From: a bacterium
Lineage (GTDB): Bacteria > Hinthialibacterota > Hinthialibacteria > OLB16
NCBI GenBank assembly: GCA_022072055.1
Contig: JAJVIK010000009.1
Location: 62,001-126,000 of the forward strand
Direction of reading: 5' to 3'
DNA: 64,000 nt
Of the stretch, positions 540-49,494 are shown one piece after another. The translations under genes and the position numbers were made by a program. Below the pieces are notes generated by a model that was not told where the DNA came from, did not search any database, and saw only the letters and a list, made by a program, of their open reading frames with translations. Each line of letters begins with the position of its first letter. Positions within the stretch are counted from its first letter, which is position 1.

Positions 540-3014
540 ATGCCTCAGAGCGAACCCGTGGAACGGGTGACACAGATCCAGCGCCGGCCGTTAGCCCGGC
601 GCTTCCTCCGCCAATATCTCTTCTCCACCGACCACAAGACCATCGGGATCCAGTATGGCGTGACCGCCATGCTGTTTCTCCTGGTCGGATTCGGTCTGGT
701 TCTTGTCATGCGCTGGGCGCTGGCCTATCCGGGATCGCCGTTGCCGGAGTGGGCCCAATCCTGGGTGGGTGACAAGAATCTCCAATCCGGGGCGCTCAAG
801 CCCGAGTCTTACAACCAGTTCGGCGCGATGCATGGGACCATCATGGTGTTCTTGGGGATTGTCCCGCTGGCGGTCGGGGCGTTCGGGAATTACCTCGTGC
901 CGCTCATGGTCGGCGCCCCCGACATGGCGTTCCCACGGCTGAACATGGCCAGTTACTGGGCCTTCCTCGCGGGTGGGGTGGTGATGCTCGCGAGTTTTTT
1001 CCTCCCGCTCGGGGCGGCCAACTCCGGGTGGACCGCTTACCCGCCGCTGGCCTCCCTCTCGCCCGGCTCGGGACAGACCTACTGGCTCGTTGGAATTGTC
1101 CTTCTTGCGACCTCTTCCCTGCTCGGTTCGATCAATTTCATCACCACGATCGTGCAGCTCCGCGCCAAGGGGCTCGCCTGGATGCGTCTGCCGTTCTTTG
1201 TCTGGGCCCAGCTGGTGACCGCCTTTCTGCTGCTGCTCGCCTTTCCCCCGCTGGTGGCCGCGGGGGTTCTCCAGCTCATGGACCGAGTGGCGGGAACCAG
1301 CTTCTTCTATCCGTCGGGCCTCTTCTTGGGCGCGGAGCAGCTCGCGGTCTCAGGCGGAGGCAGTCCGCTCCTGTGGCAGCATTTGTTCTGGTTCCTGGCG
1401 CACCCCGAGGTGTATGTCCTGATTCTCCCCGCGATGGGCATTGTGGCGGAGATCATCGCCAACAACACGCGCAAGCCGTTGTGGGGCTATCGCTCGATGG
1501 TCTTCGCGGCGCTGTTCCTCGGATTCATGTCCTTTATTGTCTGGGCGCACCACATGTACCTGACCGACATGGGGACCTCGATCAGCGCCTTCTTTCAGGC
1601 CACCACTCTGATCATCTCGATCCCCTCCGTGATCGTGGTCTCCGCCTTGGTGGTGAGCCTGTGGGGCGGTTCGATCCGCTTCAACACCCCGATGCTTTTC
1701 GCGCTGGCGTTTCTCCCGATGTTCGGTCTCGGCGGTCTCACCGGGCTGCCGCTCGCGCTGGCCGCCTCGGACATCCATCTGCACGACACCCTGTATGTCA
1801 TCGGGCACTTTCATTACATCGTGGCGCCGGGAACCCTCTTCGCGCTTTTCGCGGGGGTGTATTACTGGTTTCCGAAGCTTTCCGGGCGGCGAATGAGCGA
1901 ATGGCTGGGCATCCTCCATTTTGTCCCCTCCTTCGTGTTCATGAACGGCATCTTTTTCCCGATGCTGATCCAGGGCATGGGTGGAATCTCGCGCCGTCTC
2001 TATGATGGCGGGGCAAGCTATCAGCATGCCCAGCACCTGCTCGGCTGGAACGAATTCATGTCTCAGTCCGCGTGGTGGCTTGGCCTCGCGCAGATCCCAT
2101 TCCTCCTCAACCTCGCATGGAGCCTGGTCGCGGGGAAGCGCGTCGCGGAGAACCCCTGGGGGGCGACCACCCTGGAATGGAGCGCGCCTTGGCCCCCGAT
2201 TCACGGGAATTTTCCGGCCCCTCCGGTGGTCGAGAGGGGACCCTACGAGTATGGGGTCGGCGGGGATGCGGCGGCCTTCTCGCCGCAGGGTCTCGCGCCT
2301 GCTCCCCCACCTCAACCCTCCGCCGGCCTGACCCCACCCCAACCCTCCCCGCGAGGCGGGGAGGGAGCTATTTCCACTCCCCTCCCCGTGCACGGGGAGG
2401 GGTCTGGGGAGGGGGAGGAGCCGATCCCCCACACAGTCACCATTCGCCCCGACACCGGAACCACCAATCCCAAACTTGGGATCTGGCTCTTCCTTGCCTC
2501 GGAGATCATGCTCTTCGGCGCGCTGTTTTCATCGTATGTGCTCTTGCGGGTCAACGCGGGAGCGGAGTGGGGCGAACATGCCGCGCGTCTCAACCTCCCC
2601 CTGGCCACCTTCAACACCGCGATCCTGATCACCTCCAGCATCACGATGGTCTACGCCTGGCTGCAGCTCCTGCTCAAAGACCTTGGCCGGTATCGGCTCT
2701 ACATGGGGCTGACCATCCTCCTCGGACTTGTCTTTCTGGTGGCGAAAGGCTTTGAGTATGGCGAGAAATTCAGTCACGGCCTGCACCCCTCGGAGAGCAC
2801 CTTTCTGGCCATTTACTTCACGCTGACCGGCCTTCATGGTCTCCATGTGCTCGGGGGGGTGCTGGTCAACGGGTTTCTCCTTGGTCCCGGCTCAAGACTG
2901 TGGACCACCGCCCCCGCGCGGTTCACCAACCGGGTGGAAATCGCCGGGGTTTACTGGCATTTTGTGGACTTGGTTTGGATCTTTCTCTTCCCGACACTGT
3001 ATCTCTTGGGGTGA
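540..3014 (+). CDS. ctaDE: Cytochrome c oxidase subunit I + III fusion (aa3/caa3 type)
   Basis: This is a heme-copper terminal oxidase with subunit I (about residues 20-560) fused to subunit III (about 635-826), as in Thermus-type caa3 enzymes. Numbering here is from the alternative GTG at 534. Heme a and a3/CuB ligands are visible: His100 in FGAMHG, His290 in HPEVY, the His339-His340 pair in WAHHMY, and His425/His427 in GHFHY. The subunit III part begins at PKLGIWLFLASEIMLFG and ends YWHFVDLVWIFLFPTLYLLG. The linker between the halves contains a translated palindromic repeat (2331-2420). ATG 540 is chosen over GTG 534; neither has a clear Shine-Dalgarno. Subunit II is not in the window and is probably just upstream. 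Confidence 0.95.
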   Translation: MPQSEPVERVTQIQRRPLARRFLRQYLFSTDHKTIGIQYGVTAMLFLLVGFGLVLVMRWALAYPGSPLPEWAQSWVGDKNLQSGALKPESYNQFGAMHGTIMVFLGIVPLAVGAFGNYLVPLMVGAPDMAFPRLNMASYWAFLAGGVVMLASFFLPLGAANSGWTAYPPLASLSPGSGQTYWLVGIVLLATSSLLGSINFITTIVQLRAKGLAWMRLPFFVWAQLVTAFLLLLAFPPLVAAGVLQLMDRVAGTSFFYPSGLFLGAEQLAVSGGGSPLLWQHLFWFLAHPEVYVLILPAMGIVAEIIANNTRKPLWGYRSMVFAALFLGFMSFIVWAHHMYLTDMGTSISAFFQATTLIISIPSVIVVSALVVSLWGGSIRFNTPMLFALAFLPMFGLGGLTGLPLALAASDIHLHDTLYVIGHFHYIVAPGTLFALFAGVYYWFPKLSGRRMSEWLGILHFVPSFVFMNGIFFPMLIQGMGGISRRLYDGGASYQHAQHLLGWNEFMSQSAWWLGLAQIPFLLNLAWSLVAGKRVAENPWGATTLEWSAPWPPIHGNFPAPPVVERGPYEYGVGGDAAAFSPQGLAPAPPPQPSAGLTPPQPSPRGGEGAISTPLPVHGEGSGEGEEPIPHTVTIRPDTGTTNPKLGIWLFLASEIMLFGALFSSYVLLRVNAGAEWGEHAARLNLPLATFNTAILITSSITMVYAWLQLLLKDLGRYRLYMGLTILLGLVFLVAKGFEYGEKFSHGLHPSESTFLAIYFTLTGLHGLHVLGGVLVNGFLLGPGSRLWTTAPARFTNRVEIAGVYWHFVDLVWIFLFPTLYLLG
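2306..2420. repeat. GC-rich palindromic repeat (REP-like) inserted in frame in the oxidase linker
   Basis: Two strong inverted repeats lie side by side. At 2343-2365 a 10-bp stem (ccctccccgc/gcggggaggg) closes a gag loop. At 2379-2402 there is a perfect 24-nt palindrome with 12-nt half-site cccctccccgtg. A near-direct repeat (2306-2322 and 2333-2349, two mismatches) precedes them. The element is translated in frame as a linker rich in Pro, Arg, Gly and Glu (motifs PQPSPRGGEG and PLPVHGEGSGEGEE), quite unlike flanking oxidase sequence. This composition matches dispersed palindromic elements seen in many GC-rich genomes, but copy number cannot be judged here. Confidence 0.75.
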
Positions 3015-3343
3015 ACCGACGCATGCAGCCGACCACGACCGTTGAAACTGTCCATCGCCAAGCGCGCCTCTGCGCTGGAGTGTTTGTCGCCCTCCTGTGC
3101 CTGACCGGGATCACCGTGGCGGCGAGTTTCTGGCACATCGGGCACGCCGCAAATGTGATCCTCGCGCTGGCCATCGCCACGGTCAAAGCCGCGCTGGTGG
3201 CGATTTTCTTCATGCACCTGCTGGGTGAACAGCGCTATGTTCGCGCCATGGCGGCCCTTGCCGCCATCCTCCTTTTCGCCTTAATCGCGCTGGTGGTTTG
3301 GACTCACCTCGATCCCATCGGAGGGGCTCGTGGGATCGCTTAA
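3011..3343 (+). CDS. Cytochrome c oxidase subunit IV-type membrane protein
   Basis: This small protein of about 110 residues has three hydrophobic segments (LCAGVFVALLCLTGITVAAS, ANVILALAIATVKAALVAIF and MAALAAILLFALIALVVW). The sequence KAALVAIFFMHL is the hallmark of the prokaryotic cytochrome c oxidase subunit IV / CyoD-like family, an accessory subunit that helps assemble or stabilise the catalytic subunits. GTG at 3011 overlaps the stop codon of the upstream fused oxidase gene (GTGA), which favours translational coupling; ATG at 3023 is an alternative start. It lies in the expected place directly after subunit III. Confidence 0.85.
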   Translation: MNRRMQPTTTVETVHRQARLCAGVFVALLCLTGITVAASFWHIGHAANVILALAIATVKAALVAIFFMHLLGEQRYVRAMAALAAILLFALIALVVWTHLDPIGGARGIA

Positions 3344-3530
3344 GGTCTTTCACCTTGTCTTGATCCTGGCTTCGGCGCTCCTTGCCTTGGGTTGCGGGTT
3401 CGCGGGACTGTGGGCGTATCTATCGTATCGACAGGAGCAGGCGCTCGAGGCCGCAAGCCTGGGATTCGCCGCCTCGGTGGGGCTGGTTATTTACGCGGCC
3501 CATGTTTACAGACTGTTCCGAACGCTCTAA
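3330..3530 (+). CDS. Small two-helix membrane protein of the oxidase operon
   Basis: A 66-residue protein starts at GTG 3330, overlapping the end of the subunit IV gene by 14 bp. Two hydrophobic stretches (LVLILASALLALGCGFAGLW and LGFAASVGLVIYAAHVY) predict two membrane helices. The family is not recognised. Position and overlap indicate it is the last gene of the oxidase operon, so a small accessory or assembly protein is the simplest idea. The sequence shows no heme- or metal-ligand motif. Confidence 0.6.
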   Translation: MGSLKVFHLVLILASALLALGCGFAGLWAYLSYRQEQALEAASLGFAASVGLVIYAAHVYRLFRTL

Positions 3531-3539
3531 ATCTAGCGC

Positions 3540-4277
3540 ATGCAACGACGCGCCTTTCTCGAGACCACGATCCTTGCCGCCCTCGCGGCGGACCTCATTC
3601 CCACGCGCCGCGAGCCATCGAGCGCCCAAGCGCGCCAGGAGGACTTCATGACCCTGAACATCCAGGATGGAGAGACTGTCTTGTTCCAGGGGGACAGCAT
3701 CACGGATGCGGGCCGCGACCGCGAGAACGGCGATTCGCTCGGCGGGGGCTATGCAATGATGATTGCGTCCTGGCTCTCAGCCGCCCATCCGGAGCGGAAG
3801 ACGACCTTCCTCAATCGGGGCATTAGCGGAAACCGAGTGGTGGATCTCAAGGGACGTTGGCGGTCGGACTGTCTGGACCTTAAGCCCGACTGGGTCTCGA
3901 TCCTCATTGGGGTCAATGACACCTGGCGCCGCTATGATTCCAACGATCCGACATCCACCGAGGACTACGAACGCGGGTACAGGGACCTCCTCGATCAGGT
4001 CTCGAAGCAGCTCAAGGCCAAGCTGATCCTCCTTGAACCGTTCCTCCTGCATGTTTCCCCGGAGGTGAAGCGGATGCGCGAGGACCTGGATCCCAAGATC
4101 GAGGTCGTCCGGAAACTCGCCAAGGAATACCAGACCAGGCTCATCCCCACGGATGTTCTCTTCAGCGAGGCCTGCGCGCACCGTCCGGCGGACTTCTGGG
4201 CGGCGGATGGGGTGCATCCCACTCCCGCCGGACATGCCCTCATCGCGCAGGCCTGGATCCGCGCGGTCTCCGGATAG
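3540..4277 (+). CDS. SGNH/GDSL-family hydrolase
   Basis: The four SGNH blocks are present: FQGDSITDAG (nucleophile Ser), NRGISGNRV (Gly), GVNDTW (Asn) and DGVHPTPAGH (Asp-His). The family hydrolyses esters, commonly acyl or acetyl groups on sugars; substrate is not predictable. The first residues (MQRRAFLETTILAALAA) look like a short Tat-type leader with RRxFL, suggesting export. An alternative start is ATG 3648, which has a very good AGGAGG at 3637-3642 and would give a 209-residue cytoplasmic enzyme of usual family length. The annotated start has no clear ribosome site, so the start remains open. It follows the oxidase operon by 9 bp but is functionally unrelated. Confidence 0.88.
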   Translation: MQRRAFLETTILAALAADLIPTRREPSSAQARQEDFMTLNIQDGETVLFQGDSITDAGRDRENGDSLGGGYAMMIASWLSAAHPERKTTFLNRGISGNRVVDLKGRWRSDCLDLKPDWVSILIGVNDTWRRYDSNDPTSTEDYERGYRDLLDQVSKQLKAKLILLEPFLLHVSPEVKRMREDLDPKIEVVRKLAKEYQTRLIPTDVLFSEACAHRPADFWAADGVHPTPAGHALIAQAWIRAVSG

Positions 4278-43445: not shown

Positions 43446-45584
43446 ATGGTCGAGAATTGGATGAGACTGTTGATTGTCGCCGGGTTTCTCGCCTTCCCCT
43501 TCATGGCCCCGGGGCAAAATGAGGATGGTCCCCTCTCTATCAATTTTGTTGATGAACAGCCCAAGGAAGATGAACCGATCCAGGGCGGCTCGGTGATTGA
43601 GGGCCCGGCGGTTGAAGACCAGGGCGAACCGGAACCCCCCGCCGCGCTGGAGCCGATTCCGAATCTTCCCGCGCCCTCGGTGGAGACAATCGCTCCTCCG
43701 ACCCCCACTCCCGCCCCGATCCGATCGGAGCCCATGCCCGCGCGTGAGATCCGCGAGTCCCCCCCCGCGAGGACCACTTCCCCTCCGGTTATCCGAAGCC
43801 AGGAGCCTTCCCCACGTCTCTCGACCGAACCGGACTCGATCTCGGCCCTGTCCTCCAGCGTGGTTGTGGAACTTCAATCCGCCAAGACCGGTCAGTACGA
43901 ACCAAGGGCGGGGAATCAGTTCACGCTCCAGGCGGGGGAGCGCCTCCGTTGGAAACACGGAAAGGACCAGGAGTGGCGGGTTCTTGAAGCCTATGGCCCG
44001 ACCGAGGTGCGCCTCTTGGGAACTCATTACGAGGTGGCCGGGAACTTCTTCCACAGCTTCCGGGATGGATCGAGCCGGGTCCAAGTTCCCTCGTTGCGCG
44101 AGGCGCGTGACCGACGCGACCACCCGCGCTCCATCGATCCGCGCCGAGCCAACCTCAAACTCTTTGTCGAGGTGAGCACCTCCGCGCCCAATGCCCCGCC
44201 GCCCGATGGCAACTGCGTGGTCTGGCAGAAGGGCAACCTTTGGCTGAATGACTTGGTGGCTGGGGAGGTGGACAGCGCCCTTTCGGATGGACAGGTCGAC
44301 CACCTCGAGGTCGCGGCCAACATCCCCGGTCTGATTTTCAAGATCGTTCCCCCGGCGGACCTTCTTTTTTATGCCGTCCGTGTGGATTTCGAGGGGGAGA
44401 TCTTCAAGGAGCTCGGACGTCTCAAAGGGCAGGCGGACGCTGAAATTGAGCGTGTCGGTCGCTTGATGCAGATGGCCGACACCCCGGAGCGCCGTCTCTG
44501 GTGCGAGGCGCGTCTCGCCTACGAGCAGGAGAAATCCACCTTCTGGGGGGACCGGCAGCGCTTCTACGATTTCTTCTTGCGGAATGAGCTGGATGCCTTC
44601 GGATTGGTTCGCTCGGGCCATCCTCTTCCGCACATCGAATTGGCCCGCGCCGTCTACCGCCACAGCAACCTGGAGCTCTCGGTGGGAATCTTCTCGGATC
44701 ACTTGGGCAAGGTGCTCCTCCCGGCGGATGCCTTCCTTTGGATCAATGAAGCGGTTCCGATCACCGGGACCCCGTTCGCATTCACGATCAGCGACAAGAG
44801 CACCCCCTCGTTTATGGGCTTCGACACCCGGTTTCGCGGAGAGCAGGACAAACTCGCCGCCGAGGAGAAGTTCAGCGGCTCGACCGCGTGGGTTCCGCGC
44901 AATGTGGTCGTTGACATCTACCGCTATGCCACCTTCCGTCCGCCCCAGCCGGATGGGCCTCCGGCCTATCTGGTGGATGTCACCCTGGATATCACCGGAG
45001 GTTTGAAGCGATTGAACAAGGATCAGTCCCTTTCGGCCCGGCTGGGAACGATCCAGTTGACCCCTGACCAGTTTAAGGTGGAGATGGCTCCGGACCTGCT
45101 CGCGGCCTCCGGACCGATCGACAAGATCGTGGGGGACATCATCCTCGGTCCGCTTGGACTACGGGACTGGTACGCCGGAAGACGGTCCCATCTGCATGAC
45201 CTGTTCGAGAAGGTTCCGATGCTGCCGGACGAGATCGTGGATGAACTCGAGGAGGCTGCGGATGAACTCGGCATGCGCGTGTATGAGCTCGAGAAGCCGA
45301 AACGCGCGAGCAGCGGCTCCTATGTCTATGAACCGCACAAAGCCTCCCTTACCCTCTCTCGAACCACCGTGCCGGGCGAGCTGCGCCTGGAGGTGGTTTT
45401 GCAGGACGAGGCTGGGGAATCCGTTCGCGTGGACCGCGTTGTCCGCCCCAAGATCGATGTGATCGATTTCGCCGCTCGATCCGTGGCCATAAATCGTGGG
45501 AAGGGGCGCCTGGAAGACTTTCGTCCGATGACCTTGGCCGAGTGGCTGGATTCGCGAAAGCCGCGCTCGCTCCTGACAAACTGA
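43446..45584 (+). CDS. Large secreted hypothetical protein
   Basis: A GAAAGGAAG site precedes ATG 43446. The signal peptide (MRLLIVAGFLAFPFMAPGQ) is followed by a Pro/Glu-rich disordered segment (about residues 25-140) and then about 570 residues of globular sequence with no family I recognise. Visible phrases include GERLRWKHGKDQEWRVLEAY, WCEARLAYEQEKSTFWGDRQ and ELSVGIFSDHLGKVLLPADA. The size and lack of any membrane helix after the leader suggest a periplasmic or surface protein. It is divergent from the sigma-54 regulator (153-bp gap) and followed by another secreted protein gene. Confidence 0.75.
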   Translation: MVENWMRLLIVAGFLAFPFMAPGQNEDGPLSINFVDEQPKEDEPIQGGSVIEGPAVEDQGEPEPPAALEPIPNLPAPSVETIAPPTPTPAPIRSEPMPAREIRESPPARTTSPPVIRSQEPSPRLSTEPDSISALSSSVVVELQSAKTGQYEPRAGNQFTLQAGERLRWKHGKDQEWRVLEAYGPTEVRLLGTHYEVAGNFFHSFRDGSSRVQVPSLREARDRRDHPRSIDPRRANLKLFVEVSTSAPNAPPPDGNCVVWQKGNLWLNDLVAGEVDSALSDGQVDHLEVAANIPGLIFKIVPPADLLFYAVRVDFEGEIFKELGRLKGQADAEIERVGRLMQMADTPERRLWCEARLAYEQEKSTFWGDRQRFYDFFLRNELDAFGLVRSGHPLPHIELARAVYRHSNLELSVGIFSDHLGKVLLPADAFLWINEAVPITGTPFAFTISDKSTPSFMGFDTRFRGEQDKLAAEEKFSGSTAWVPRNVVVDIYRYATFRPPQPDGPPAYLVDVTLDITGGLKRLNKDQSLSARLGTIQLTPDQFKVEMAPDLLAASGPIDKIVGDIILGPLGLRDWYAGRRSHLHDLFEKVPMLPDEIVDELEEAADELGMRVYELEKPKRASSGSYVYEPHKASLTLSRTTVPGELRLEVVLQDEAGESVRVDRVVRPKIDVIDFAARSVAINRGKGRLEDFRPMTLAEWLDSRKPRSLLTN

Positions 45585-45644: not shown

Positions 45645-47426
45645 ATGCGTTCTGGACTTACCGTGGTGCTGTGGGCGACTCTTTGCGTCCCCGCGTTCGC
45701 CGATCGGATTGTGCTGATCTATGGCGATGTGCTGGAGGGGAGCGTGATCGCTCAGACGGATCAAACCATCACCATCCGAGGCTCGTTCGGCGATCGGGTC
45801 ATGAACAAGAGCGATATCCGGGAGATTGTGAAAGGCGCGCCGGAAACGGCCCCAAGCGCGAGTCCCGGGACCCTACCGCCGGAATGGGCCTCCGAACCAC
45901 CCAAAGCCGCTCAGCCCGCCGCCGCTTCCCCCGCCGCCGCGAATATCCCCGCCGGCGCCTGGCCCTCCGCGCCAAGCTTCCAGGCCCCATCGACCCCATC
46001 CGCTCCGAGCGCTTCGACCGTGCCGCTGCCCCCGAGGGATGTCCCCAGCGCGCCCGTTCCCGAGACTCAGCCGGCGGCCTCCTCCCCGGATGCCCCCCTG
46101 GAATTGCCCGAGACCGCGGGCGCTCCCCAGGCGCCCCCATCCAATGCCTACGACCTGATCCGTCGCAACGCCGAGATCCAATCGCAATGGAAAGACTTGG
46201 AGATCTCTTATATCCAGCGGACCTTCGCCGGAACCCAGGTCTTCGAGACCCGCTACATCGCGCGGATCATCCCGCCCAATTATCTGAGGGCCAAACTGAT
46301 CTCCCCGGTTCCGGCCAGCCAACAGTTCCCGCAGGGGGGTGAGGTCGAATACGACATGTACCGCGCCAAGGGGACCTTATGGCAGGTGGCCAAGGTTCCC
46401 GGACAGCCCGTCCAGTATCTCCAGATGGACGCTTCCCGCGTGGAGCGCCAAGCCGCCGCGAATCCCATCGAATCCTTCCAAAAGGGATTCGCCGGAACGG
46501 GCACCGATGAGAATCTGCTCCGGCCCCTCGCGAGCGCAAGCTCGATCATCGGGGAGGAAGTCATCGAAGGACATCCGTGCTGGGTGATGGAGACCCGCTA
46601 CACCGAGGAATTGATCGAAGCCCAGGTCCAGCGCTATCCCACCGAAATACGCGGGCTGGTCCGTCAGCAGCTCGGGCAGATCGGACTGATTCGCAATTGG
46701 ATCGGCAAGCAGGACACGGTCCAGTGGAGAATGGAGAGTTTCACACCGGCCGGGCAGCCACTCTTGGCGATGATGGTCCTTTCGATCAAGCCCAACGCGA
46801 ACCTTCAACCGGATGATCTGCGCATGCGCGTTCCCAAGGGGACCGTGTGGGTGGACATCACCGACATGGTGACCGGGGGGGTGAACCAGATGCTTCAGGG
46901 TCAGCCGCTCCAGCAGCAACAACTTCAACAGCAGGCCGCGAAGCTGGGTGTCCAGACTCAGCCCCAGGCCACCTATAGCCAGGTTCCGGCCACTCAACCT
47001 CAACAAACCTATCAGATGCCGGCCCAGCAGCAGCCGTCCGCCTTCCAAAGCTCGCCTCAGCAACAGATGTACGTTCAGCCGCAGCAGCAACAGATGTGGC
47101 AGATGCAGCAGCCGGCGGCGCAACCGAGCTATCAGCCGCAGGTCCGCCAGCCCCAGCAGTTTCAGCAGACCTATGTTCAGCAGGGGAATCCCGGGGCGAG
47201 ACCTCAGCAGCAAATGATGGTCATGCCTCAACAGCAGCAGCAGATGATGATGCAGCAGCAGCCTCAGCAGCAGGGCGGCGGCGGGTTTTTGTCACGCTTG
47301 TTTGGGGGAGGCCGCCAGCAACAAACCCAGCAACAGATGTACAGCGGCTATCCCCCGCAGGGCAACCAGCAGATGATGGTCCCGGTGATCAACGGCCAGC
47401 CGCAGATTCCGTATCAGGGGAGATAG
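45645..47426 (+). CDS. Secreted protein with LolA-like middle region and Gln/Met-rich tail
   Basis: An AAGGAG site precedes ATG 45645. After a signal peptide (LTVVLWATLCVPAFAD) there is a short beta region (RIVLIYGDVLEGSVIAQTDQ), a Pro/Ala-rich linker (about 70-165), and a middle domain (about 170-420; YIARIIPPNYLRAKLI, ASSIIGEEVIEGHPCWVMET, VQWRMESFTPAGQP) laid out like outer-membrane lipoprotein-sorting (LolA-like) domains. Residues about 425-590 are dominated by Gln, Met, Pro and Tyr, with runs of Q and MM. Such composition is prion-like or aggregation-prone. Function is unknown. It follows the secreted protein at 43446 by 60 bp and may form an operon with it. Confidence 0.75.
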   Translation: MRSGLTVVLWATLCVPAFADRIVLIYGDVLEGSVIAQTDQTITIRGSFGDRVMNKSDIREIVKGAPETAPSASPGTLPPEWASEPPKAAQPAAASPAAANIPAGAWPSAPSFQAPSTPSAPSASTVPLPPRDVPSAPVPETQPAASSPDAPLELPETAGAPQAPPSNAYDLIRRNAEIQSQWKDLEISYIQRTFAGTQVFETRYIARIIPPNYLRAKLISPVPASQQFPQGGEVEYDMYRAKGTLWQVAKVPGQPVQYLQMDASRVERQAAANPIESFQKGFAGTGTDENLLRPLASASSIIGEEVIEGHPCWVMETRYTEELIEAQVQRYPTEIRGLVRQQLGQIGLIRNWIGKQDTVQWRMESFTPAGQPLLAMMVLSIKPNANLQPDDLRMRVPKGTVWVDITDMVTGGVNQMLQGQPLQQQQLQQQAAKLGVQTQPQATYSQVPATQPQQTYQMPAQQQPSAFQSSPQQQMYVQPQQQQMWQMQQPAAQPSYQPQVRQPQQFQQTYVQQGNPGARPQQQMMVMPQQQQQMMMQQQPQQQGGGGFLSRLFGGGRQQQTQQQMYSGYPPQGNQQMMVPVINGQPQIPYQGR

Positions 47427-47506
47427 GGGGTCAACTGGGAGTCCCAGGGAGGGAGGACATGAAAGGTTCCTTGCGATAGACTGGTCGCTCGAAATGTCAA
47501 GGTGCC

Positions 47507-48400
47507 ATGCGACGCCCTCCCGATCCCAAACACCCGCTTGCCGAGGTCTTCGGCTTCCCGAGCTCGGATATGGGGCCTCGCGCGAAAAGGCACCGCTCTC
47601 GCCGCTTGTGTCCGTTCAACAACAAGGTCCCAAACTGTACGAAGGACAAGGCCCAAGACCCACTTGGCGTTTGTAGTGTTCACCATGATTACCGGCCCGT
47701 CATCACATGTCCGATTCGTTTCCGGCAGGATTGGATCATCGCGGATGACGCCGGGGATTTCTTTTTTGAGAAAGGCGCGACTTGGACGACATTGACTGAG
47801 GTTCGACTGAAGGATGTCGACGGTGGATCAGCAGGAAATATCGACGTTGTTTTGTGCGCATACGATGGGGGTGGGAGGGTCTATGACTTCGGTGCTTTGG
47901 AAGTCCAGGCTGTCTACATTTCTGGGAATATTCGGAATCCGTTTCAAGCCTACATGGAGGACCCACCAAAGAATTGCTCAATGGACTGGACCCACGAATC
48001 CAATTACCCGCGTCCGGACTACCTTTCGTCGTCCCGTAAACGCCTTGCTCCGCAATTGATCTTCAAGGGAGGAATTCTCAGAGCCTGGGGGAAACGGATG
48101 GTGGTCGCCCTCAACAAGGGCTTTTTCGAGACTCTTCCGCAGCTGCCCCATGTTTCCAAAGAGAATGCCGACATTGCTTGGGTGATCTACGACATGAAGC
48201 CTCCCCGCGCTGGGGGGGAGCAGTTTACCTTATTTCGAGAGAGAGTGGTTTATACTCAATTCGAACCGTCCTTGGCAGAGATAACCAGGCCGCGACCCGG
48301 AAGGATGGAGGAGTTTCTCAAACACCTGCAACTCAAGGTTGACGAGAAGTTGGAAACACCCCCGAACAACCAGACCATTGAGAATCCGTTCGGTGAATGA
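47507..48400 (+). CDS. NotI-like type II restriction endonuclease
   Basis: This 297-residue protein resembles NotI in layout. N-terminal four cysteines (Cys35 in LCPFNNK, Cys44 in NCTKD, Cys56 in GVCSV, Cys68 in ITCPIR) match the metal-binding fold unique to NotI-type enzymes, and the sequence LAEVFGFP precedes them. The PD-(D/E)xK-like core appears as Asp113 (NIDVVLC) followed by Glu132-x-Gln134 in FGALEVQAVYISGN, with Gln in place of the usual Lys. The next gene, 3 bp downstream, is an adenine methyltransferase, completing a restriction-modification pair. GC content is visibly lower than neighbours, suggesting transfer. Confidence 0.75.
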   Translation: MRRPPDPKHPLAEVFGFPSSDMGPRAKRHRSRRLCPFNNKVPNCTKDKAQDPLGVCSVHHDYRPVITCPIRFRQDWIIADDAGDFFFEKGATWTTLTEVRLKDVDGGSAGNIDVVLCAYDGGGRVYDFGALEVQAVYISGNIRNPFQAYMEDPPKNCSMDWTHESNYPRPDYLSSSRKRLAPQLIFKGGILRAWGKRMVVALNKGFFETLPQLPHVSKENADIAWVIYDMKPPRAGGEQFTLFRERVVYTQFEPSLAEITRPRPGRMEEFLKHLQLKVDEKLETPPNNQTIENPFGE

Positions 48401-48403
48401 ATC

Positions 48404-49294
48404 ATGGAACAAGCGCTTTTGTTTCCGAACTGCGTTGACGAGCAAAGAGAAAAGCCTGTTAACGTGGCTTCTGTCCCCCAGCGCAGCCCGTTCCGCTATC
48501 CGGGCGGAAAGACCTGGTTGGTGCCCTTGGTGCGGAGGTGGATGAAGAGTCGGTCCTGTCTACCCGACGTGTTTGTGGAACCTTTCGCGGGTGGTGGGAT
48601 CATCGGACTAACAGTCGCCTTTGAAAGGCTGGCAAACCGAGTTGTGATGGTGGAGCTTGATAGGAATGTTGCCGCAGTGTGGGAGACTATCCTGGGTGGG
48701 GAAGCAGCCTGGCTCGCGGATCGTATCCTAGAGTTCAACCTGACTCTTGAGGGGGTAAGGGCGGAGGTTTCCAAGACCCCCAGATCTCGTCGAGAACTGG
48801 CCTTTCAGACCTTGCTTAGGAACAGAACCTCCCACGGCGGGATTCTTGCTGAGGGTGCAGGAGTTCTAAAGAACGGCGAGAATGGTCGTGGGATCCATTC
48901 GAGGTGGTACCCAAAGACTCTTGCGAATAGGATTCGACACATCGAGCTCGTTTCCAGTCGGATCGAGTTTCGCAGGGGAGATGCGTTCGATGTGATTCCC
49001 GAATACTTGGGAGATGATCTTGCGGTTGTCTTCTTAGATCCACCGTATACTGCGGGAGGAAAACGTGCCGGGTCCCGGCTTTACACCCATTTTGAGATCG
49101 ACCATGAACGCTTGTTTGCCTTGTGTGAACAAGTCAGTGGAGACTTCTTGCTGACCTATGATAACGCGGAAGAAGTCGTGGCGTTGGCGAAGAAACATGG
49201 ATTTGCGACTAAGCCAGTCCGCATGAAGAACACGCACCACTCAGAGATGACCGAACTGCTGGTCGGACGAAACCTTGACTGGATTGAGCGATGA
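48404..49294 (+). CDS. D12-class DNA adenine N6-methyltransferase (modification subunit)
   Basis: A Dam/DpnM-like (class D12, alpha group) methyltransferase of 296 residues. It has the N-terminal PFRYPGGKTWLVPLVRRW, AdoMet-binding motif I DVFVEPFAGGGIIGLT and the catalytic DPPYTAGGK motif (about residue 215) plus NRTSHGGI in the target-recognition region. It presumably methylates adenine in the site of the adjacent NotI-like nuclease to protect host DNA. NotI itself cuts a GC-only site, so an adenine methylase implies a different target here. In 48601-48660 I count 31 G+C of 60, lower than flanking genes. Confidence 0.88.
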   Translation: MEQALLFPNCVDEQREKPVNVASVPQRSPFRYPGGKTWLVPLVRRWMKSRSCLPDVFVEPFAGGGIIGLTVAFERLANRVVMVELDRNVAAVWETILGGEAAWLADRILEFNLTLEGVRAEVSKTPRSRRELAFQTLLRNRTSHGGILAEGAGVLKNGENGRGIHSRWYPKTLANRIRHIELVSSRIEFRRGDAFDVIPEYLGDDLAVVFLDPPYTAGGKRAGSRLYTHFEIDHERLFALCEQVSGDFLLTYDNAEEVVALAKKHGFATKPVRMKNTHHSEMTELLVGRNLDWIER

Positions 49295-49494
49295 ATGCGC
49301 TTAGCTCCACTGGCAATGCGTCTACCGCGATGAAAAGGTGCTCAAGAGGCTGGCGTGAACTGAACACCCCCATCATGGGCCGAAATCGCGGATTCCGAAA
49401 CTTGAAATTCTTGTGGAAGGGGAAGCTACCCCTCCCCTACAGCTTCTGCCAAAAGTCGTCGAGCTGGCGCGACCAGCCCTCCTCCAAGGGTTGA
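49291..49494 (+). CDS. Possible small ORF coupled to the methyltransferase gene
   Basis: A 67-residue frame starts at an ATG overlapping the methyltransferase stop (ATGA at 49291-49294), the form of a coupled gene. The product is basic (many Arg and Lys) with no recognised motif. Its last 58 bases overlap the convergent gene at 49437-49943, which weakens the case. It could be a remnant of a third restriction-modification gene, such as a controller protein, or chance. Confidence 0.25.
   Translation: MNALSSTGNASTAMKRCSRGWRELNTPIMGRNRGFRNLKFLWKGKLPLPYSFCQKSSSWRDQPSSKG

Follow-up and report, generated by a model that had tools for sequence, protein, structure and literature searches.

A NotI-family nuclease gene paired with a D12 adenine methyltransferase gene: a probable restriction-modification system in a bacterium of the Hinthialibacterota

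Two adjoining genes in the 64,000 nucleotides of bacterial DNA that we analysed (the window) encode a NotI-family restriction endonuclease and a methyltransferase of the D12 adenine class, and we put the probability at roughly 0.9 that they form a Type II restriction-modification system, acquired horizontally and aimed at a target that contains adenine. The nuclease would recognise a specific sequence and cut it in foreign DNA that lacks the modification, the methyltransferase would methylate an adenine in that same sequence on the host's own DNA and so block the cutting, and the two enzymes would share one common site. This reading is built on what the pair itself displays, namely its family, its fold, its intact and conserved active-site residues, the coupling of its genes and its foreign composition; we infer both the identity of the metal in the nuclease and a role for the pair in phage defence.

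The nuclease and its partner

The nuclease gene (47,507 to 48,400, forward strand; 297 aa) was recognised by its open reading frame, its Pfam match and its match to the NotI fold. Against the Pfam NotI profile (PF12183) its product scores 212.8 bits (E 6.1e-63), where the curated cut-off is 22. An AlphaFold model, built on an alignment of 43 sequences and having a mean pLDDT of 87, was compared with the PDB by Foldseek and found NotI both in its apo form (3bvq_A; E 2.1e-9, TM 0.67/0.59) and bound to DNA (3c25_B; E 5.3e-9). Below an E value of 1e-3 the fold matches were to NotI only, the best of any other kind standing at 0.13. The structural match to NotI, on which the sequence-only reading had staked its identification, is thus there to be seen. 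Fold comparison alone reached it: searches of the PDB by sequence, with single sequences and with a profile, did not find NotI, and because they missed it we regard the relation to NotI itself as remote (aligned identity, 11-13%).

Where would such an enzyme hold its metal and do its cutting? Conservation among relatives marks out two places on the forward strand: the codons of Cys35, Cys44, Cys56 and Cys68 (47,609 to 47,710), predicted by likeness to NotI to form a Cys4 metal site, and those of E98, D113 and E132-x-Q134 (47,798 to 47,908), a predicted active site of the PD-(D/E)xK kind in which Q stands for K. In NotI, the Cys4 motif is reported to hold Fe, and Q likewise to replace the catalytic K (PMC4081073). 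All of these residues are invariant in the window's closer relatives (43/43), and in the wider NotI family (n = 42) Cys35, Cys56 and Cys68 are present in every member and Cys44 in 41, the acidic residues are present in all 42 and the Q in 40, both exceptions being His in fusion proteins from Chlorobia. With the profile, the fold, the four cysteines and the Q-for-K active site all in place, the nuclease is a member of the NotI family, and the four-Cys, ExQ form that had been noticed in the bare sequence holds up.

Chlorobia carry NotI-family genes of a second kind as well; their products are about 445 aa long, have ExH where the others have ExQ, and begin with a helical stretch that weakly matches DUF2383. 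These genes lie in convergent pairs (L256-L259; in L258, at 928-2265 on the plus strand and 2892-3650 on the minus strand), they were found in genomes G267, G286, G288, G291, G301, G308, G309 and G314, and no methyltransferase was seen within their 3.6-kb loci. The ExH gene may be a repurposed descendant.

The second gene of the pair (48,404 to 49,294, forward strand; 296 aa) begins 3 bases past the nuclease stop codon, and a promoter search ahead of the nuclease gave nothing beyond chance. Open reading frame, profile matches and motifs identify it: its product matches Pfam MethyltransfD12 (PF02086) with 42.3 bits and an E value of 9.7e-11 (cut-off, 22), and PADLOC models of Type II methyltransferases match it as well. 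Among 27 relatives, the columns of the AdoMet-binding stretch from motif X (YPGGK) to motif I (EPFAGGG; 48,497 to 48,598, forward strand) are invariant or nearly so, and the catalytic motif IV, DPPY (D212, P213, P214 and Y215; 49,037 to 49,048, forward strand), is invariant. Judged by its profile and by the conservation of motifs X, I and IV, the enzyme is intact, and it is of the D12-class N6-adenine type that the sequence-only reading had named for the nuclease's neighbour.

A mobile, conserved unit

We gathered 80 loci from data holding one genome per species, with nucleases 59-75% identical to the window's, from carriers in Verrucomicrobia, Nitrospirae, Planctomycetota, Chlorobi, Chloroflexi, Cyanobacteria, Deltaproteobacteria, Thermus, the archaeal Methanothrix and others. 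At each of the 78 loci where the contig runs past the nuclease gene, the gene of the same D12 methyltransferase lies directly downstream on the same strand (78/78), usually within about 15 bases. The two proteins have also diverged in step: over 68 complete pairs, their distance matrices correlate with r = 0.93, where the maximum of 2000 permutations was 0.27. The nuclease and the D12 methyltransferase are, in other words, a stable conserved unit, and their arrangement as separate, linked genes kept as a pair is that of a Type II restriction-modification system. It has been carried onto a Thermus plasmid, where it adjoins an integrase gene, and onto a viral contig, and it needs no other defence gene beside it.

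Could the genes nonetheless be mere neighbours, the methyltransferase an epigenetic orphan and the nuclease decaying or otherwise employed? In some relatives the reading frame of the nuclease is indeed interrupted (L059, L061, L064 and L075), and there are D12 relatives, 43-53% identical to the query enzymes, beside which no NotI-family gene is recognisable, one on a prophage-like contig (L289:3938-5179, plus strand) and others on Bdellovibrio and Deinococcus plasmids (L302:2474-3358 and L303:2480-3421, both plus strand). Against such a view, the linkage and the co-divergence persist over many phyla, and in the window both frames are intact and the active-site residues are the invariant ones; we consider it very improbable.

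The restriction-modification pair, moreover, looks foreign where it sits. Both genes have a GC content of 0.54 and a GC3 of 0.59-0.62, as against 0.60-0.64 and 0.72-0.81 in their neighbours. A 200-bp GC profile, together with tblastn of the flanks against relatives, places a low-GC segment at 47,500 to 49,400 (about 0.51-0.58 from 47,700 on), which does not extend past the two genes with their short flanks and lies between two blocks of host genes. A search of the phylum (14 genomes) found a NotI-family gene in 3 and no NotI-family nuclease in either of the two same-family relatives, both of which keep, by tblastn, the gene blocks that stand on either side of the pair. In these relatives the blocks are separate and lie on separate contigs, so comparison with the empty site leaves the exact insertion point undefined. 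The nearest kin of the nuclease are in Verrucomicrobia and Nitrospira (73-75% identity), with 64% and 62% for the two carriers of the same phylum. No direct repeats of at least 12 bp were found framing the low-GC segment and no tRNA was found near the pair; the segment has a weak 16-bp inverted pair, one arm of which is within the nuclease gene. The low GC, the absence from both family relatives and the closest kin in other phyla support horizontal acquisition of the pair, and with it the recent transfer first proposed from GC content.

The gene just upstream (45,645 to 47,426, forward strand) has a product of 593 aa whose long C-terminal part is rich in Gln, Met and Pro, and it adjoins the gene at 43,446 to 45,584 in both family relatives too.

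What the pair might recognise

NotI's site is made of G and C only, without adenine. A partner that modifies adenine would call for a target containing A, which could then not be NotI's GCGGCCGC; an A-containing target follows naturally from the conserved D12 partner, and the constancy of the nuclease-D12 unit lends support to the earlier suggestion that the pair is aimed at an A-containing site unlike NotI's. One might still imagine the nuclease as a NotI isoschizomer, sharing as it does the fold and active-site form, with the true protecting methyltransferase elsewhere in the genome. This we find scarcely credible, since the partner linked to it throughout is an adenine methyltransferase and would be no protection for a site without adenine, and since NotI is missed by the PDB profile search and is so distant in aligned identity.

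Can the target of our pair be read from what genomes avoid? We compared the 6-bp palindromes of the pair's own genome and of carrier samples (1.9 Mb) with those of non-carriers, and no palindrome tested was both consistently and specifically depleted in carriers. One candidate was CGATCG (the PvuI/XorII specificity), in which the D12 enzyme would make m6A inside GATC and sister cytosine-5 partners would protect at C. Of all 6-bp palindromes, CGATCG is the one most strongly depleted in 464 kb sampled from the host, with 112 observed and 332 expected (O/E 0.34, where four relatives that are not carriers give 0.61-0.81); sites resembling GATC are often those on which D12 enzymes act; and a sister NotI-family nuclease that adjoins a Vsr gene has a cytosine-5 partner. 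In three other carriers, however, there is no depletion (O/E 0.84, 0.81 and 1.13), the O/E pooled over the 80 carrier loci is 0.63, the same as for many other palindromes, and in Chlorobia 13 carriers overlap 68 others (one-sided p 0.05, uncorrected for GC or kinship). We therefore hold CGATCG to be an unlikely target for the pair. The strong depletion in the host sample (G000) stands as an observation in its own right.

A further comparison bears on the same candidate. Cytosine-5 enzymes specific for CGATCG are a known group, widespread in cyanobacteria (PMC4390886), and the cytosine-5 enzymes of NotI-family systems were considered as members of it. They are 31-44% identical to almost all of their cyanobacterial matches, and the sole match at 50% adjoins another NotI-family gene; the link to that group was not upheld. 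Two other palindromes were set aside: GTCGAC looked low throughout the carriers but is just as scarce in cyanobacteria that are not carriers, and AGGCCT looked low in cyanobacterial carriers, with several non-carriers as low (one-sided p 0.03, uncorrected for many motifs). Since a mobile system may leave no trace of avoidance in a host that it entered recently, the failed depletion tests exclude no site.

More may be learned from the partners that NotI-family nucleases keep. D12 partners occur on pEST4011 and on Variovorax and Aeromonas plasmids; cytosine-5 partners on plasmids of Xanthomonas, Pseudomonas, Sedimenticola, Cronobacter, Sphingobium and Roseivivax and in a Pseudomonas phage, as well as on Paraburkholderia pBN5, where a Vsr gene accompanies them; and two cyanobacterial members adjoin methyltransferases of the N6_N4 type. 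On a tree of the family (42 rows, with deep forks that are unsure owing to long branches), the partner label changes at least 5 times. The most telling case is a plasmid branch with mixed partners (L085 versus L087 and L088; NZ_CP022995.1, NZ_CP121823.1 and NC_005793.2): the pBN5 nuclease, which has a cytosine-5 partner, is 83.1% identical to that of the Aeromonas plasmid and 82.3% to that of pEST4011, both of which have D12 partners, and a search of pBN5 for a D12 relative found none. If both kinds of partner protect against a near-identical nuclease, then the site of this plasmid branch probably holds both A and C.

Might that hold for the family as a whole? Conservation is higher among the methyltransferases (46-90% identity within each lineage) than among the nucleases (often below 35%): the D12 enzymes of the window and of Aeromonas are 55% identical, where the nucleases share about 30%, and for the cytosine-5 enzymes identity is 46-90% between branches whose nucleases often share less than 35%. 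Such sequence comparisons suggest a target that has been kept even as the nucleases drifted apart and partners of one chemistry gave way to those of another. That NotI-family nucleases share one A- and C-containing target, protected interchangeably by D12 and cytosine-5 lineages, is an idea we offer tentatively and would not bet on.

Relation to known systems

The window's pair has known counterparts at several distances. Its methyltransferase matches the PADLOC model PD-Lambda-5_B (6e-43), a component of the anti-phage system PD-lambda-5 of an E. coli prophage (PMC9519451). We rejected the pair as a PD-lambda-5 system: the component B model alone was matched, with no PD-Lambda-5_A, and the partner is a NotI-family nuclease.

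A close likeness is on a plasmid of Thermus brockianus, pTbrSNM4-1c (NZ_AP025595.1), where NCBI annotates a "NotI family restriction endonuclease" and a "DNA adenine methylase"; subfamily and gene order are those of the window and the nuclease is 61% identical, although the host is another and the pair is borne on a plasmid. On the IncP plasmid pEST4011 and on Aeromonas plasmids, too, a NotI-family nuclease adjoins a methyltransferase, with D12 enzymes 53-55% identical to the window's, whereas the nucleases of pEST4011, Aeromonas and pBN5 are only about 30% identical to it and pBN5's partner is a cytosine-5 enzyme. Pairs of a NotI-family nuclease with an adenine methylase have therefore already been named by NCBI on plasmids, and the window adds one more; literature searches on its NotI subfamily found nothing. 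To our knowledge, the wider NotI family has been little described.

Mapped targets of the window's branch could yield a cutter whose site contains A and is blocked by m6A. What most deserves pursuit, in our view, is that near-identical nucleases have come to be paired with different methylation chemistries; such natural pairs would put directly to the test how a restriction-modification system can take a new partner and leave its host alive.

As for NotI itself (Nocardia otitidis-caviarum; 3BVQ, 3C25), it is a standard rare cutter whose own partner methyltransferase is an N4-cytosine enzyme. It shares with the window's nuclease the fold, the Pfam family, the Cys4 motif and ExQ, and the window's nuclease differs from it in sequence (about 13% aligned identity), in being shorter and in having a D12 adenine methyltransferase for a partner.
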